Positions 1 through 37,047 of a stretch of DNA of 37,047 bases are shown here, piece by piece. Below the pieces are notes generated by a model that was given only the letters and a program-made list of their open reading frames with translations, was not told the DNA's origin and did not search any database. Source of the DNA: Firmicutes bacterium ZOR0006 (GTDB taxonomy: Bacteria; Bacillota_I; Bacilli_A; Culicoidibacterales; ZOR0006); assembly GCA_000798955.1 (NCBI GenBank), contig JTLC01000032.1, positions 1 through 37,047 on the forward strand, read 5' to 3'. The translations under genes and the position numbers were made by a program. Positions within the stretch are counted from its first letter, which is position 1; the number at the start of each line of letters is the position of its first letter.

Positions 1-5
1 AAAAT

Positions 6-97
6 AGTACTGATTACCACTTGGTCACCTGAAGTTGTTTCAACCTGTTATGCCTAGCGTTGAATCGGTGTCGGGCACTCTTTTTTTGAAACGTGCC
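6..97 (-). repeat. Modular intergenic repeat, copy R1 (arm 2 + core)
   Basis: This stretch is nearly identical to 36855-36944, with about ten differences including small indels. It has an outer arm (6-36) starting AGTACTGATTACCACTTGG and a core (about 37-97) that ends GAAACGTGCC. The core contains an inverted repeat TTCAAC/GTTGAA and a second one, GGCAC/GTGCC, around a T-rich loop. The strand is given as minus because, in the other copies, the second stem keeps pairing only in minus-strand RNA (G-U). The family is not one I recognise. The copy starts at the window edge and may extend further left. Confidence 0.85.
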
Positions 98-114
98 GCT
101 GCCTAGTGATCGGC

Positions 115-229
115 TGAAAATCGAAAATGATTGAATTTCAATCTCTCTGATTTCACTCATTTCCTTATTTTCGTCGCCATCACTTTTTCACCTTTTATTG
201 TTGGGATGAAAATTGGCATCGGGCACTCT
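115..229 (-). repeat. Modular intergenic repeat, copy R2 (arm 1 + decayed core)
   Basis: Arm 1 (115-187) matches 36667-36736 closely. It is an imperfect inverted repeat: 116-139 pairs with 149-172 at about 17 of 24 positions around a 9-nt centre. The following core (188-229) is degenerate: TTCA/TGAA remains of the first stem, the GGGCACTC block is kept, and the closing GTGCC half is missing. The copy ends directly against the polC stop codon (230-232), so the repeat forms the polC 3' flank. Confidence 0.75.
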
Positions 230-3200
230 TTAAAATAAATCGAGCATCATTTGGTTACTATCTGGTAAATGCTTCAAAACATCCATTGTCGTTAATTTTG
301 CAATGAGTGTTTTAGAAACTTTTCCACGTGATTGCAAATCTTCTTTTGAAGTAAATGTTCGCTCTTCTCGGGCACTAACAATCGCTTCAGCAACGTTGTT
401 TCCTAAGCCATCAATCGTCTTAAATGGTGGAATCAATGCATTATCTTCAATGAGGAAATTATATGCATCTGATTTTTCAACATCAATATTTTTAAAGTAA
501 TAGCCACGTTCGCACATCTCCAGTGCAACTTCTAATACTGTCATTAATGATTTCTCTTTTGTACTTGCTTCAAGACCTTTGGCATTAATTTCATCAATAC
601 GTGAACGAATAAAGTTCTTCCCTTTAATCATTGCTTCAATGTCAAAGTCACTTGCTCGCACTGAAAAGTAAGCAGCATAAAAATAGAGTGGATGATGTAC
701 TTTGAACCAAGCAATTCGCACTGCCATCAACACATACGCTGTGGCATGGGCTTTGGGGAACATATACTTGATTTGCTTACATGACCAAATATACCATTCT
801 GGGACTTCATTTGCTTTCATATCAATTTCCCAATCTTCCGTTAGCCCTTTTCCTTTACGGACACTCTCCATAATCGTAAATGCGAGCGACGGTTCAAGTC
901 CAGCATACATGAGGTAAACCATGATATCATCACGACAACCAATGACATCTTTTAATGTACAGGTCTTGTCATTTACTAATGTTTGAGCATTATTAATCCA
1001 AACATCAGTCCCATGTGATAATCCCGAAATTTGGACAAGCTCAGCGAAAGTCGATGGTTTTGTATCAAGTAACATTTGTCGAACAAATTTTGTTCCAAAC
1101 TCAGGAACACCAAATGTTCCGACTTCAGAATTAATTTGTTCTGGAGTTACACCTAAAGCATCAGTTCCCGCAAAAAGTGAATAAACCTTTGGATCATCTG
1201 TTGGAATTGTTTGTGGATCAATCCCACTTAAATCTTGTAGCATCCGGATTACTGTCGGATCATCATGCCCAAGAATATCAAGTTTTAGTAAGTTATCATG
1301 AATAGCATGGAAATCAAAATGCGTTGTTTTCCATGGACTACTAACATCATCCGCCGGATATTGAATTGGTGTAATATCATAAATGTCCATATAATCAGGA
1401 ACAACAATAATTCCACCTGGATGTTGTCCAGTTGTGCGTTTTACACCGGCACAACCTTGCACGAGTCGATCAATTTCAGCGCCTTTTAATTTCATGCCTT
1501 TATCACTTTCATAGCCACGAACATACCCAAACGCTGTTTTTTCCGCTACTGTTCCGATTGTTCCGGCACGGTATACTTTATCCTCACCGAAAAGAACTTT
1601 TGTGTAATTGTGTGCTTGTGCTTGATAATCACCAGAGAAATTTAAATCGATATCGGGAACCTTGTCACCTTCAAACCCTAAGAACGTCTCAAAGGGAATA
1701 TCATGCCCATCTTTATTCATTTGCTGTTGACAGCTTGGACACGTTTTATCTGGCATGTCATAGCCACACCCGTACTCACCACCATGGAATTCACTATGTT
1801 GACAGTTTGGACACACATAATGTGGTGGGAGGGGATTCACTTCGGTAATATCCATCATTGTTGCAACGAAAGAAGAACCGACAGACCCACGTGAACCAAC
1901 AAGATAGCCATCATCAAGTGATTTCTTTACTAATTGATGTGAAATAAAATAGATAACCGCAAATCCATTCCCAATAATACTCGTTAGCTCTTTTTCCAGT
2001 CGTGCTACTATCAATTCAGGTAAGTCCACACCATAAATCGAACGGGCTTTGTCATAAGACATGTTTCGCACATCGTCATTAGCTGTATCCATATGCGGTG
2101 TAAACAATTCATCTTTAATCACTTGAATCGGACTGAATTGATCAACGAGAGCATGCGGATTGTCAATGACGAGCTGATTACGAGTCTCATTATCTAGAAA
2201 ACCAAAGCAATCGAGCATTTCTTGTGTCGTGCGGAAATACATAGATGGGATTTGTGTAATTTCACGTTTAGCAAGTGGATGCACTCCAATTTGTGATTGC
2301 ACATAAATATCTCGCAACAACCATTCATCCTGATTTAAATGATGGACATCTCCACTTGCAACATATGGTTTGCCGAGCTCTTGTGCAATTTGAATATGCC
2401 AACGAATAAGTTGTTCCAAATCAGCATTTGTTCCAACATTATCAGTTTGAACAAGGTGCTGGTAATTTTGTGGTGGTTGTACCTCAATATAATCATAAAA
2501 TTCAGCAACTGCTTTTGCTTCCTCATATGAACCTGAAAGCAGCGTTTTAAATAATTCACTTGAATCACAGCTTGAACCCACAAGCAGATTTTCACGATAT
2601 TGATTGAAAACACTCTTAGGAATTCGTGCACCTGCATGGTAGTATGTCGTATTTGCAAATGATACAAGCTTAAATAAATTCGATAATCCAGCTTCATTTT
2701 TCGCAAATACAACTGTGTGAAACGGTCGGCCACCTTTGTAGGCAAAAGCAGGATCAATGAGTTCATGAATCCCTTCAATTGTCGTAATTCCGGCTTCTTT
2801 TAAGTCACGTAACATAAATAAGAATACTTCTCCGGTTGCTTGGGCATCATAGATAGCACGGTGATGATTATCCAAAACGATACCAAATTTACGCGTTAAA
2901 AATTTCAACCCATGTCGTTTCATTTGCGTATACAAATTTCGTGATAATTCTAAGGTATCAATCACTGTATTTTCTAGCGGTCCTAAGCCAAATTGGCGAT
3001 AAGCTGCTTTAATGAAGCTAGCATCAAAGGTCGCATTGTGAGCAACAAGAATTGCATCACCGCACCATTGTTGAAAGTCACGCACAACATTTTCCACATC
3101 GGGAGCTGTTTGGACATCACGTTCACTGATATTTGTTAATTCCATTGTTTTTGCTGAAAGTGGTTGGTGTGGATTCGCAAAACTTTGAAATTTATCAATA

Positions 3201-4468
3201 ATCTGACCATTTTTAACTTTAACAGCACCAATTTCAATGATTTTTTCAAATGTTGCTGATAATCCTGTTGTCTCTAAGTCGAAAATAACATATGTTTGGC
3301 TATCTAATGCTCCTGGACGTTCATTGACAACGATTGGGGTGAAATCATTGACAACATTTAATTCCACACCATACAAGACTTGAATTGCTTTGTTTTTTCC
3401 TGATGCATAGTAAGCATCGGGAAATGATTGTACACCGTTGTGATCTGTAATGGCAATCGCTCGGTGGCCGAAATTAATTGCCTGTTTAACTAAATCTTTC
3501 GCACTCACTACCCCATCGAGGGTGCTCATTTGCGTATGTGCATGTAATTCAATACGTTTTTGTTCCGCACGATCGCTACGCCCACTCTTTTCGATGACTT
3601 CAAAATTTTTCACCATCATCACCAACTCATGATTCATGAAAGTATCAACATCAATCGGTCCACCAGCTTTAATCCATGTTCCCTTTTTGATTGGTTCTTC
3701 ACCCTCATTTAACCACGCTTTGAGATACAATGAATCACTATAATCAGTAATTTTTGCTGTCATGATTTTTTTACCACTGCGGGTTTCGCGAACCTCGACA
3801 TCAAAAACATAGCCTTCAATTACGGTAAATCCGTCTGGCTCTTGAATATTTTTGAGTTGTTGAATCTCACCAGTTAGTTTCCGTTTTCCATACTCGTTTC
3901 CACCTTTTCGTCGCGGTTGCGGTTGCGGCTGTGGTTGTGGTTTTGGTGCTACTGCTTCAATCACAATCTCTTCTTGATGCTTCTGTTTCACTGCTTCAGC
4001 TTTTACTTGATCAATTCCTAGTTGCAAGCGTTGGGGCATACCTAGTTGTTGATAAAAAGTTTCTAATGCCCCGACAAAGCGTTGACTCTTTTCCAACGTT
4101 GGCATATCAATCAACCCAACACTCAAATGATTATCATCACAGACTTGAAGTGCTGCTTCTTGTAATAATCGCGCAACCATTGCTGATTCACGTGTTAATG
4201 TTTGGCAGGCAATTGGCCAATATTCATAAATATGCTCTTGCTCATAGTTTTGTGGCTCTACAAATAACATACTTTCGTACGGAAAGCGTTCTTGCATGGC
4301 TGTTACTAATTGGACATAAACCTCAGTTGCTAACGGTAGAGGTGTTTGCAAATAAAAATGCCATTGCTGACTGCTCGAATCGACAACGAGACGTTGTAAC
4401 TGAACTTCTGGCAAGGCAAGTTGTGACAATTGTAATTGTTCTAAAAAAATCGCGAGTTTATTTGTCAC
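230..4468 (-). CDS. polC: DNA polymerase III alpha subunit, Gram-positive PolC type
   Basis: This is the replicative polymerase with built-in 3'-5' proofreading, 1412 aa (B. subtilis PolC is about 1437). The N-terminal region is followed by a Pro-Gln linker (about 174-185), an OB fold (about 213-290), a PHP domain with HAH at 309-311, and a DEDDh exonuclease inserted in it (DLET with D397 and E399; HNATFD at 477-482; HHRAIYD ending at D541). The polymerase part shows GSRGSVGSS (858-866), a cysteine zinc site (C886, C889, C901, C910, C913) and the palm motif PDIDLNFSG with D939 and D941. The start is GTG; no in-frame ATG lies upstream, and a GAGTG-like ribosome site is weak. A terminator and an extended -10 promoter separate it from proS, so it is at least partly transcribed independently. 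Identification is very secure; the start is less so. Confidence 0.97.
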   Translation of the reverse strand: MTNKLAIFLEQLQLSQLALPEVQLQRLVVDSSSQQWHFYLQTPLPLATEVYVQLVTAMQERFPYESMLFVEPQNYEQEHIYEYWPIACQTLTRESAMVARLLQEAALQVCDDNHLSVGLIDMPTLEKSQRFVGALETFYQQLGMPQRLQLGIDQVKAEAVKQKHQEEIVIEAVAPKPQPQPQPQPRRKGGNEYGKRKLTGEIQQLKNIQEPDGFTVIEGYVFDVEVRETRSGKKIMTAKITDYSDSLYLKAWLNEGEEPIKKGTWIKAGGPIDVDTFMNHELVMMVKNFEVIEKSGRSDRAEQKRIELHAHTQMSTLDGVVSAKDLVKQAINFGHRAIAITDHNGVQSFPDAYYASGKNKAIQVLYGVELNVVNDFTPIVVNERPGALDSQTYVIFDLETTGLSATFEKIIEIGAVKVKNGQIIDKFQSFANPHQPLSAKTMELTNISERDVQTAPDVENVVRDFQQWCGDAILVAHNATFDASFIKAAYRQFGLGPLENTVIDTLELSRNLYTQMKRHGLKFLTRKFGIVLDNHHRAIYDAQATGEVFLFMLRDLKEAGITTIEGIHELIDPAFAYKGGRPFHTVVFAKNEAGLSNLFKLVSFANTTYYHAGARIPKSVFNQYRENLLVGSSCDSSELFKTLLSGSYEEAKAVAEFYDYIEVQPPQNYQHLVQTDNVGTNADLEQLIRWHIQIAQELGKPYVASGDVHHLNQDEWLLRDIYVQSQIGVHPLAKREITQIPSMYFRTTQEMLDCFGFLDNETRNQLVIDNPHALVDQFSPIQVIKDELFTPHMDTANDDVRNMSYDKARSIYGVDLPELIVARLEKELTSIIGNGFAVIYFISHQLVKKSLDDGYLVGSRGSVGSSFVATMMDITEVNPLPPHYVCPNCQHSEFHGGEYGCGYDMPDKTCPSCQQQMNKDGHDIPFETFLGFEGDKVPDIDLNFSGDYQAQAHNYTKVLFGEDKVYRAGTIGTVAEKTAFGYVRGYESDKGMKLKGAEIDRLVQGCAGVKRTTGQHPGGIIVVPDYMDIYDITPIQYPADDVSSPWKTTHFDFHAIHDNLLKLDILGHDDPTVIRMLQDLSGIDPQTIPTDDPKVYSLFAGTDALGVTPEQINSEVGTFGVPEFGTKFVRQMLLDTKPSTFAELVQISGLSHGTDVWINNAQTLVNDKTCTLKDVIGCRDDIMVYLMYAGLEPSLAFTIMESVRKGKGLTEDWEIDMKANEVPEWYIWSCKQIKYMFPKAHATAYVLMAVRIAWFKVHHPLYFYAAYFSVRASDFDIEAMIKGKNFIRSRIDEINAKGLEASTKEKSLMTVLEVALEMCERGYYFKNIDVEKSDAYNFLIEDNALIPPFKTIDGLGNNVAEAIVSAREERTFTSKEDLQSRGKVSKTLIAKLTTMDVLKHLPDSNQMMLDLF

Positions 4469-4608: not shown

Positions 4609-5868
<1,260 letters not shown>

Positions 5869-15891: not shown

Positions 15892-16260
15892 TCATTTTAA
15901 TTGATCAGTTTGAATAACTTCGACTTCACGAGCGACAGCCTGAACCGGGTAAGATTCGGCTACGGGCCCCTCAAACTGAATAGCAACGTACATCCCAACC
16001 TCAAGTTGCTTAAGTTGGAGTCGTTGGCTATCGAGCATAATCGGAGTTTGCTGCGTAAGCCGAACAGCCGCTTTATCATATGCCGCAACTTCATCGCCGC
16101 TTGGTGTTTCAACAAGAATCACAGCACCATCTTCACTCGCTTGTAATTGGGTAATTGTACCCCTAATTTCAATTTCATCAATTTCGACAGTTCGTTGCAC
16201 CGAAACAATCGCCAACACCATAGCAATAATTATGAAAATCCAGAGATATTTGTGTTTCAC
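15892..16260 (-). CDS. Membrane-anchored DUF3221/YobA-like protein
   Basis: A 122-aa protein. An N-terminal hydrophobic anchor (KHKYLWIFIIIAMVLAIVSV) leads to an all-beta extracytoplasmic part with RGTITQLQASEDGAVILVET and ending near GPVAESYPVQAVAREVEVI. The G-P-V-x-E-S-Y-P-x-Q-A pattern is typical of DUF3221 lipoproteins, but no lipobox Cys is seen here, so it would be membrane-anchored. The role of this family is not known. It starts at a GTG just 1 nt after the pepV stop, so it is translated from the pepV mRNA, with only a weak ribosome site. Confidence 0.65.
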   Translation of the reverse strand: MKHKYLWIFIIIAMVLAIVSVQRTVEIDEIEIRGTITQLQASEDGAVILVETPSGDEVAAYDKAAVRLTQQTPIMLDSQRLQLKQLEVGMYVAIQFEGPVAESYPVQAVAREVEVIQTDQLK

Positions 16261-20772: not shown

Positions 20773-20803
20773 GCAAAAAAACCAAACAAAACTGTTTGGT
20801 TTT
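20773..20803 (-). terminator. Terminator after the diguanylate cyclase gene
   Basis: A perfect 9-bp stem AACCAAACA/TGTTTGGTT around a 4-nt loop, followed by six to seven T on the minus strand. Confidence 0.88.
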
Positions 20804-22769
20804 AAAAATTTGTCAACTCAGCCTCATTGATAAAAACAAAGGCTTTATTGATAATTTGTAAAAATTCAAGATCTTCTTCGCGAGCACAAATTGTGCGCTC
20901 GACATAATAGGGGAATTGATATTCCATTCGCAATGGTGCCCGTTGAATTGCTTCCTCTGCCGTATCACGACTCAAAATCAAGGCTTGAATTTCATAATTT
21001 TGCAAAGCAAGAATCAATTCTCTCACAGTTGTATACTGCACAACATTTTCTGCCTGAATATTAAAAACCCGCAAATAATTCTTCACATATGATGTTGCTA
21101 ACAACCCCACCTTCATTCGTGATAAGTGAGTCAGCGATAATTTTGCCCGATTCATCGAAGTCAACACAACTGGTGCTGTATGACTGAATGGTAAGGACAG
21201 TGATAATCCTTGAAAAAACTGGTTCTCATACGCTAAGTTTTCTGCTAAAAAAACAGCAAAGCTCAGATCGGCCTGATGGTTCCGTAAAGAAGCAATTACG
21301 GGAGATTGTTCCTCATTTCCGCCTTGATAATCAACAATTTCAAATTGTAAATCAAGTACGGTCGCAAGATAATTTAAAACATTTGTCGCTTGTCCAGTAT
21401 AACAATCAAGATGGTGATTAAATCGGGAAAATCCTCCATGATTTTGTTGTAAAAATACCCGAATCGTCGCTTTTTGTCGTAATAATTGCTTCTCTTCTGT
21501 CGTTAAAAACGCTTGCACTTTCGTTCGCAATGCTTGGGGATGCTTCGTTTGCCGTCGAAAAGCATTTTTCCCTCCGGTTTGCAAATAGCGTTTAATAATT
21601 GGCGCTAAAAAAGCTGCTGGACTATGATGATTCACAACTATCCCTGTTGTGACATCACTGACTTCTTGTCGATAAACTGGCACTGCCATCTCTTTCAAAT
21701 TTGCATACTTAAAGAAGTAGCTTGAAGTCAAGAGTGCAGCAACTTCACCTTTTTCAAAAGCAATAGTCGCCTCATCTAAGGTCTCATATACATGAAAATA
21801 ATCACTGCCATTTACATATTCTTTGATCGTATTATACAGTAACCTTGACATCCCCATCGGGACATCTTTTGCTTGTTCAATACTATAGCGTGTGCCATCT
21901 TTTTGTGTTAATAATACAAGTGGTGACAATTCAAATGGAATATATGTCGCCTCTAGTGTATCAGGAATCGCAATCGAAACCGCATGGATTAAGCAATCAA
22001 ATTGCGAAAAATTTTCATTTGTATGTTGCTTTTGGGTAATTTTCTCAAGTTTGATTTTAAGACCTAAAAATTCCGTCAAAAATTGATAATAATATTCTTC
22101 AAAGGTGCTTAACATATCAAAATAACCAATTCGCAGTTCTTGTTCGCGAAGTTGGGCTAACATGTGTAACTCTTCGTCAGTAATAATCGGTAATTCTTCA
22201 ATTTTCGTTGTCAGTGTCATTTCAATCCGATTCCGTCCTTTACGCTTGGCAACATAAACCATTTCATCAGATTGAGCCAGTGCTTGTGGAAATCCACAAA
22301 CTGCTTTCTCATAACACGAAATACCAATCGAAGCACCTAAAACGAGTTTTTGGTCCACTTCTGCACAAAAAATTGGTTCTCGGCAAACTTCGAGTAATTG
22401 TTGGGCTTTCGTATATGCTTGCTTATAATCACTTGTTGGCCAAACAACTAAAAATTCATCACCGCCCATGCGAAATTTATAATGGTCTTCTTGTGCAAAC
22501 ACACGTGATATTTTTTGCGTCATACCGCGAACAGCACTATCCCCAACAATATGACCGTATGTATCGTTAATTAACTTCAGGTGATCAAGGTCAATTAAAA
22601 TTAACATTGCCTGTGAAAATTTCGGATGCTGTGTTAGCACCTCTAAAGCGTGACGATTATAAAATCCTGTTAAGTAGTCCGTTTGTGATTGTTCGTGAAT
22701 TTCTTGAATACGTGCATAATCAACATCCCGCACCTCGCGATTCATCAATTGCTGATGCCCTAGCTTCAT
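20802..22769 (-). CDS. Soluble diguanylate cyclase: N-terminal GGDEF plus two SBP-like modules
   Basis: A 655-aa protein (656 if the ATG just before is used); residue numbers here count from that earlier ATG. The GGDEF domain comes first (about 28-185), with TDYLTGFYNR, LIDLDHLKLINDTYGHIVGD, MGGDEFLVVW (103-107) and SIGISCY all intact, so c-di-GMP synthesis is expected. The inhibitory RxxD site is absent (QEDH at that place). After it come two regions that look like family 3 substrate-binding proteins (SBP_bac_3): a weaker one at about 213-395 and a clearer one at about 436-650 (RNHQADLSFAVFLAEN, LSLPFSHTAPVVL). There is no signal peptide or membrane helix. Usual relatives have sensor, membrane helix, then GGDEF. 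The second ATG has AAGGAG at better spacing. It is a single-gene unit with its own terminator. Confidence 0.85.
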   Translation of the reverse strand: MKLGHQQLMNREVRDVDYARIQEIHEQSQTDYLTGFYNRHALEVLTQHPKFSQAMLILIDLDHLKLINDTYGHIVGDSAVRGMTQKISRVFAQEDHYKFRMGGDEFLVVWPTSDYKQAYTKAQQLLEVCREPIFCAEVDQKLVLGASIGISCYEKAVCGFPQALAQSDEMVYVAKRKGRNRIEMTLTTKIEELPIITDEELHMLAQLREQELRIGYFDMLSTFEEYYYQFLTEFLGLKIKLEKITQKQHTNENFSQFDCLIHAVSIAIPDTLEATYIPFELSPLVLLTQKDGTRYSIEQAKDVPMGMSRLLYNTIKEYVNGSDYFHVYETLDEATIAFEKGEVAALLTSSYFFKYANLKEMAVPVYRQEVSDVTTGIVVNHHSPAAFLAPIIKRYLQTGGKNAFRRQTKHPQALRTKVQAFLTTEEKQLLRQKATIRVFLQQNHGGFSRFNHHLDCYTGQATNVLNYLATVLDLQFEIVDYQGGNEEQSPVIASLRNHQADLSFAVFLAENLAYENQFFQGLSLSLPFSHTAPVVLTSMNRAKLSLTHLSRMKVGLLATSYVKNYLRVFNIQAENVVQYTTVRELILALQNYEIQALILSRDTAEEAIQRAPLRMEYQFPYYVERTICAREEDLEFLQIINKAFVFINEAELTNF

Positions 22770-22789
22770 CATTTTCTCCTTTTCACTTT

Positions 22790-23010: not shown

Positions 23011-24557
<1,547 letters not shown>

Positions 24558-35415: not shown

Positions 35416-36567
<1,152 letters not shown>

Positions 36568-36642: not shown

Positions 36643-36673
36643 ATTTTCACACTCTATACTCTAGTGTGAAAAT
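36643..36673. repeat. Perfect 11-bp inverted repeat at the edge of repeat copy R3
   Basis: ATTTTCACACT (36643-36653) and AGTGTGAAAAT (36663-36673) are separated by 9 nt. The right arm is the first part of arm 1 of R3. There is no T-run of terminator type. Confidence 0.8.
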
Positions 36674-36792
36674 CGAAAATGATTGAATTTCATTTTTCTG
36701 ATTTCATTCATTTCCTTATTTTCGTGCCATCACTTTCAACCTGTTATTCCTAGCTGTTGAATCGGCGTCGGACACTCTTTTTGAAACGTGCC
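36667..36792 (-). repeat. Modular intergenic repeat, copy R3 (arm 1 + core)
   Basis: Arm 1 (36667-36736) matches R2 and is an imperfect inverted repeat (36668-36691 with 36700-36723, about 17 of 24 pairs). The core (36737-36792) matches those of R1 and R4, with TTCAAC/GTTGAA and the GACAC/GTGCC stem. A short CTGCCTA after the core is shared with R1. Confidence 0.85.
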
Positions 36793-36854
36793 TCTGCCTA
36801 CAACTTCTTCACCAAGCTCATCAGTACTATTTTTTCCTTTTTGAGTATGAAAAC

Positions 36855-36944
36855 AGTACTGATTACCACTTGGTCACCAGAAGTTGTTTCAACCTGTTAT
36901 CCCTAGCTGTTGAATCGGCATCGGACACTCTTTTGAAACGTGCC
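36855..36944 (-). repeat. Modular intergenic repeat, copy R4 (arm 2 + core)
   Basis: Nearly identical to R1. The arm-2 start AGTACTGA also forms a perfect 8-bp inverted repeat with TCAGTACT at 36820-36827. The core has TTCAAC (36888-36893) and GTTGAA (36909-36914) as one stem and GACAC with GTGCC (36940-36944) as a second. Downstream to the window end (36945-37047) I see no feature I can name. Confidence 0.85.
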
Positions 36945-37047
36945 TCCTGCTGCAAATCTCGTGAAAACGAAATAAACGTCTGAATTCTTCGTTCACATTT
37001 ATTCCTTTTTTCACATACCGATTTGCTGCTATCCTGAATTGCTTGTG

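Follow-up and report, generated by a model that had tools for sequence, protein, structure and literature searches.

In the genome of Firmicutes bacterium ZOR0006 and in one congener, we identified a family of short, folded, non-coding repeat units that stand in runs, mostly closely behind the stop codons of genes. These units are probably MITE-like insertion elements, restricted to the genus, that have also been selected as RNA and that build arrays in 3′ UTRs. The DNA analysed here (37,047 nucleotides, hereafter the window) is a complete contig, C33, of an assembly of 1.97 Mb in 93 contigs. The initial annotation of this sequence had described a repeat family framing the window, in which one core was joined to either of two unrelated arms. 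A repeat search (families D1, D4, D8, D14 and D15) recovered its four copies and both arms where they had been placed, and, read on the plus strand, the arms do follow the reported order, with arm 2 before arm 1 on the left and arm 1 before arm 2 on the right. However, the copies in the window are all in minus-strand orientation, the boundaries of the natural unit are offset from those of the copies first described, and a third type of unit at the right edge had been overlooked.

The extent of the natural unit was read from longer arrays elsewhere in the genome. It spans GTGCTGA to GAAGCAYG, measures approximately 118-145 nt (∼130 nt), and is followed by a linker of about 8-16 nt. The predicted fold is a three-way junction consisting of P1a (∼5 bp), a GA/GA internal loop, P1b (4 bp), a hairpin P2 and a long hairpin P3 that is interrupted by two small internal loops; the closing stem P1 has the form GTGCT-GA-4 bp / 4 bp-GA-AGCAC. 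Ends of the type GTGCTGACACC...GGTGGAAGCAC constitute terminal inverted repeats of a short, non-coding unit, as in MITEs, and no ORFs were found between the units of an array. The supposed core proved to be the join of neighbouring units (P1′, linker, P1 and P2), and the supposed arms 1 and 2 are P3 types A and B out of at least 10 P3 types named by pattern sorting, further P3s being left unsorted. A pseudoknot considered for type A (loop AATCACT with AGTGATGG) was discarded, as these pairs belong to the regular outer stem of P3 as soon as P1 is taken into account.

Several variations on this layout were also noticed. An apical P3 hairpin (GGYAGCTGAGATRCCG-like, with a 4-bp stem and a loop of about GCTGAGA) recurs across otherwise different P3 types in many units of both genomes, such as C57:29305 in this genome and C23:26680 in the congener. 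A longer P3-like module (AATAACGTGATTTAGTCTKCAATTGCTAG...) follows a P1-P2 start at C2:111680 and at C85 ∼350-500 in this genome, and a unit of P1 and P2 only, without P3, is present in C28 of the congener, just upstream of the unit at 16096-16232 (minus strand). At C44:12018 and C14:5361 of this genome, units appear to have entered the P2 loop of a second unit; these host loops read ...CTAA/TTAA followed by G, resembling the stop-codon junction described below.

At the left edge of the window, the array lies directly behind polC, which encodes a PolC-type DNA polymerase III (230..4468, minus strand; NCBIfam NF001688, 1956.8 bits). The polC stop codon TAA (232-230, minus) is followed by 3 nt and then by the array (TAA-AGA-GTGCCC...). 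Its first unit (92..226, minus) is a complete three-way-junction unit with P3 type A, the former arm 1 (covariance model R1, 90.5 bits). The linker TTTCAAAAAAAGA (79..91, minus) comes next, the last 5 nt of which repeat the 3′ end of polC (TTTTAAAGA), and the second unit, with P3 type B, the former arm 2 (1..78, minus; recognised from its sequence and BLAST matches), is cut by the contig end.

The right end of the window shares an exact 61-nt overlap with contig C35, which ends in queA (named from its C-terminus and from its position ahead of tgt, which is conserved, rather than by a family search). This places the right-edge array between queA and tgt (35416..36561, minus; NCBIfam TIGR00430, 577 bits). 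Its first unit (36939..37047, minus), the overlooked one with P3 type C, is cut by the contig end, and its 5′ part sits in C35 behind queA, as supported by a covariance model match at 36953-37025 and by the overlap. After the linker TTTCAAAAGA (36929..36938, minus) stands a complete unit with P3 type B (36787..36928, minus; P1 pairing TGCC/GGCA, predicted folding energy -54.3 kcal/mol), and after the linker TTTCAAAAAGA (36776..36786, minus) a third unit with P3 type A and a truncated 3′ end (∼36661..36775, minus; partial match to model R1 at 36661-36764). This third unit carries a P2 hairpin identical to that of the second, yet another P3 type, so that within the queA-tgt array a single P2 adjoins two different P3 hairpins. 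Thus, of the earlier proposal of mosaic assembly or recombination at the core, the modular exchange still fits, whereas the core itself is a junction between units.

The presence of the family at both edges of the window is an assembly effect: the contig broke inside two arrays, behind polC and between queA and tgt, because these repeats break the assembly. A unit was found within 150 nt of the end at no fewer than 29 contig ends of the same assembly, and hence the units help to explain why this genome assembled into 93 pieces.

A covariance model built only from the units of this genome detected 124 units here and another 35 in the congener (150 scored candidates each), which agrees with the earlier view of a genome-wide, multi-copy and modular family unlike simple REP elements. 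BLAST with one unit found nothing in the congener at E≤0.01, and a degenerate 29-nt unit pattern gave 0 matches across a collection of genome contigs. The other 294 of 296 Bacilli genomes yielded no units with the covariance model, although weak relatives could be missed with 11 candidates scored per genome. The queries used had no matches among phages, plasmids or viral contigs. The covariance models of Rfam 15 reported only a T-box elsewhere in the window and nothing for the repeats, and came near no gathering cut-off for any of 12 array loci. The earlier annotation gave no named family with this layout, which the Rfam result supports, and neither of the outcomes that had been set against the family was observed: the copies are not limited to four, and they matched no known family. 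The family is genus-restricted among the genomes examined, and no earlier description of it was found.

The T-box just mentioned is a leader (24328-24544, minus; 113 bits) before a tyrosyl-tRNA synthetase gene (23011-24285). Two other genes of the window were also noticed. The proline-tRNA ligase (4609-5853, minus) has just 414 aa, matches the bacterial-type model in two stretches and looks as if it were without the inserted editing domain. A protein of 656 aa (20802-22772, minus) has a strong GGDEF (diguanylate cyclase) match at residues 26-185, and no NCBIfam match was shown over most of the remainder.

The runs consist of few, head-to-tail units in sense with the upstream gene. Among 88 runs, a sense ORF ends close upstream in 55, and 50 of these 55 begin 0-12 nt after the stop codon; most of the remaining runs lie at contig edges, represent inner parts of split arrays or have decayed. 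The gene after the run is on the same strand in 46 cases and on the opposite strand in 15.

At least six loci were common to both species by their upstream genes, frr and pgk having been identified from their C-termini. The polC of the congener (93% identical) has no unit after the same C-terminus, and that of this genome has one. The queA-tgt array of this genome corresponds to a decayed remnant in the congener, where the tgt match (C2:73541-74680) also shows one in-frame TAG that may reflect a sequencing error, a pseudogene or recoding. One shared and presumably older unit (C2:97832 in this genome, C32 in the congener) directly follows the gene in one species but stands second in the other, which is the order that entry of new units beside the gene would produce.

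We then considered whether the fold itself is conserved. Most of 62 units, folded singly, gave the same predicted shape; as this list had been chosen by a script for pairing ends, it cannot test P1b. In 84 end pairs picked by end motifs alone, with complementarity not used, P1b was fully Watson-Crick (4/4) in 54, compared with 7% after partners were shuffled, and over a dozen pair combinations occurred. In an alignment of 24 diverse units (A1), 86.8% of cells were paired versus 63.5% in shuffles, and double-change cells numbered 202 versus 61.5; moving the structure one to three columns along the alignment abolished this signal. Units of the congener gave 391 double-change cells versus 122.8 after shuffling (0/500 as high). 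This second alignment was fitted to the covariance model, which favours pairing, but this matters little given the effect size and the slide control. In the same units, internal hairpins far from the ends covaried as strongly as P1.

The folding energies lead in the same direction. Against dinucleotide shuffles, the median z was -6.5 and 133 of 143 units fell below -3. The sense-minus-antisense difference was -9.5 kcal/mol, compared with -4.8 in shuffles, and GU was kept better than AC. The strand bias of the predicted fold points to an RNA that would be read together with the upstream gene. The covariation shows that the units share one predicted three-way junction on the gene-sense strand, maintained by compensatory change. 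Judged by such change in an independent set of sequences, the family qualifies as a candidate new structured RNA.

One alternative is that the units are purely parasitic MITE-like DNA, in which complementarity is maintained by hairpin-templated (quasipalindrome) repair and the position behind stop codons is simply what purifying selection allows. The high copy number, the truncated units, decayed remnants such as that between queA and tgt in the congener, and the very different sets of types in the two congeners are all in its favour. However, palindrome repair does not favour GU over AC and would not keep one multibranch layout across unrelated sequences, and selection alone would not put most insertions ≤12 nt from a stop codon rather than anywhere intergenic. 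We consider this explanation rather unlikely.

The linkers provide evidence on how the arrays may have been built. A linker usually opens with TT(T/A/G) or CCG, followed by a copy of the letters before the run, and it often repeats the 7-11 nt that precede the unit, sometimes including the last codons and the stop. Examples are TATCGTTTAA in C14, AAAAACTAA in C63 (ending Lys-Asn-stop), AATAACCAA in C38 and ACAGTCTAA (Thr-Val-stop) behind frr in both species. Over 57 runs, the exact match between flank and linker averaged 4.88 nt, compared with 1.95 when linkers were swapped between loci; the highest mean in 5000 linker shuffles was 2.81, and 0 reached the observed value. When swaps were confined to linkers from one genome that shared their last three letters, the match was 6.23 versus 5.58 of 9 (maximum of 2000 shuffles, 5.93), that is, the excess within one linker class is modest. 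The 5′ junction follows HRA^G (^ marks the junction) in nearly all units, with A at -1 in 141/144 and A/G at -2 in 142/144, and this motif includes TAA^G and TGA^G. As in MITEs, the linker copy can be regarded as a putative target-site duplication, incomplete at many loci.

On this basis, we propose that a unit inserts at an HRA^G junction and leaves the linker copy as a duplication of its target. As TAA^G and TGA^G fit the motif, the gene would retain its stop codon after insertion, and later units would enter at the same junction, so that the distal unit would be the oldest and often truncated. Nearly every run ends in a partial unit with the same start, an outcome that is not predicted by simple insertion with duplication and speaks against this model.

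A different possibility is array growth by slippage or unequal recombination, in which a segment comprising the last ∼10 nt of the gene and one unit was duplicated in tandem; modules would have been exchanged later between loci by gene conversion, with no transposition required after the first seeding. Near-identical neighbours (C2:111394/111537, C28:63301/63443 and C30:14563/14693) show that tandem duplication also occurs. The partial units with the same start that close the runs agree with this process, as does the one P2 on two P3 types between queA and tgt. Nevertheless, the runs at C57:29305-29873 and C53:15168-15598 mix units of different type, all of which carry the local linker; the unit types behind frr are unrelated between the two species, yet the ACAGTCTAA copy is identical; and the unit shared by C2:97832 and C32 of the congener changes its place in the run. 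The junction and linker sequences appear to fit repeated insertion at the same junction better than simple tandem duplication, which seems somewhat improbable as the main process.

With regard to the mover, the sequences examined yielded neither an autonomous element nor a transposase whose ends match, and a search for a long version with the same ends returned arrays only. The P1b sequence is highly varied, which is odd for terminal repeats recognised by a transposase. Another proposal, which is unlikely at present, is that the identity of the element resides in its three-dimensional RNA fold: a trans-acting enzyme might recognise the three-way junction, whatever P2 and P3 it carries, and insert it at stop codons (HRA^G, with a duplication of ∼9 nt). 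If this is true, one machinery would move many unrelated sequences and stack them in 3′ UTR arrays.

It also seems quite unlikely that the hairpin serves as a single-stranded-DNA recognition structure for a recombinase, as in REP/RAYT or attC/integron integrase systems, with covariation selected for DNA recognition and not for RNA. Such a structure would also yield a strand-specific fold and a directional HRA^G junction motif. However, a Y1 transposase (Y1_Tnp) is absent from this genome, hairpins in the interior of the unit covary no less strongly than P1, and a target-site duplication is seen, whereas single-strand transposition of the IS200/IS605 kind leaves none. No reverse transcriptase (RVT_1, PF00078) was detected in either genome, controls being positive, and mobilisation by reverse transcriptase or Y1 transposase was accordingly rejected. 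Group II introns and other retroelements were set aside on the same PF00078 result, on their layout and for want of a match to the ribozyme models of Rfam; and hammerheads on layout and the same ribozyme models. An integron attC reading also seems improbable, as the layout does not fit; no ORFs were seen between units.

Several known repeat families resemble these units in part. BOX elements of Streptococcus pneumoniae are composite, modular, high-copy intergenic repeats with secondary structure when transcribed, and are thought to be parasitic and mobilised in trans (PMC3049150). The present units are likewise composite, modular, high-copy, intergenic and folded. However, BOX has the layout boxA-(boxB)n-boxC with conserved module sequences, which sets it apart: here each unit forms a complete three-way junction by itself, its modules vary freely in sequence while the fold stays the same, and whole units are repeated and tied to stop codons. 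In excerpts of the reports on bcr1-bcr3 of the Bacillus cereus group, these are MITE-like, group-specific folded repeats in UTRs and operons, bcr1 being ∼150-170 nt, and bcr3-bearing transcripts are listed with a different half-life, 3.6 vs 2.5 (PMC3446304, PMC2267715). Our family is similarly group-specific, folded and intergenic, but the same excerpts do not describe tandem arrays of covarying three-way junctions whose linkers repeat the end of the gene.

MITEs of the ERIC, Correia and QMITE2 type are short elements that carry inverted repeats and duplications and whose transcripts fold stably; QMITE2 is found mainly in 3′ UTRs, and ERIC and Correia alter mRNA stability (PMC10969869). The units described here are likewise short, with inverted-repeat ends, putative duplications and a stable predicted fold, although those families are defined by sequence similarity and the present copies share structure far more than sequence. 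Like REP/BIME-RAYT, they are multi-copy folded intergenic elements downstream of genes, but REPs are 20-40 nt in alternating orientation, whereas our units are ∼130 nt, head to tail in one orientation and in a genome that lacks the Y1 transposase, and this assignment was rejected. The family is best regarded as a new variety of MITE-like structured repeat, which is structure-defined, stop-codon-linked and arrayed.

Once transcribed, the arrays may fold compactly in 3′ UTRs and in the spaces separating co-directional genes, where they could shield the upstream message from 3′ exonucleases or separate its fate from that of the next gene. By analogy with ERIC and Correia, and as has been suggested for bcr3, the arrays would most likely affect message decay or read-through, and for many copies parasitism free of any benefit is equally compatible with the data.

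ERIC, BOX, REP and bcr elements are generally identified from their sequence, and their movement is usually taken to depend on sequence as well; searches based on sequence only would miss families of this kind. The present family is united by its structure while the sequences diverge freely, its runs are tied to stop codons, and many of them copy the gene end. Whether structure alone specifies a mobile repeat, and whether this structure protects the upstream mRNA, are questions that can be tested.
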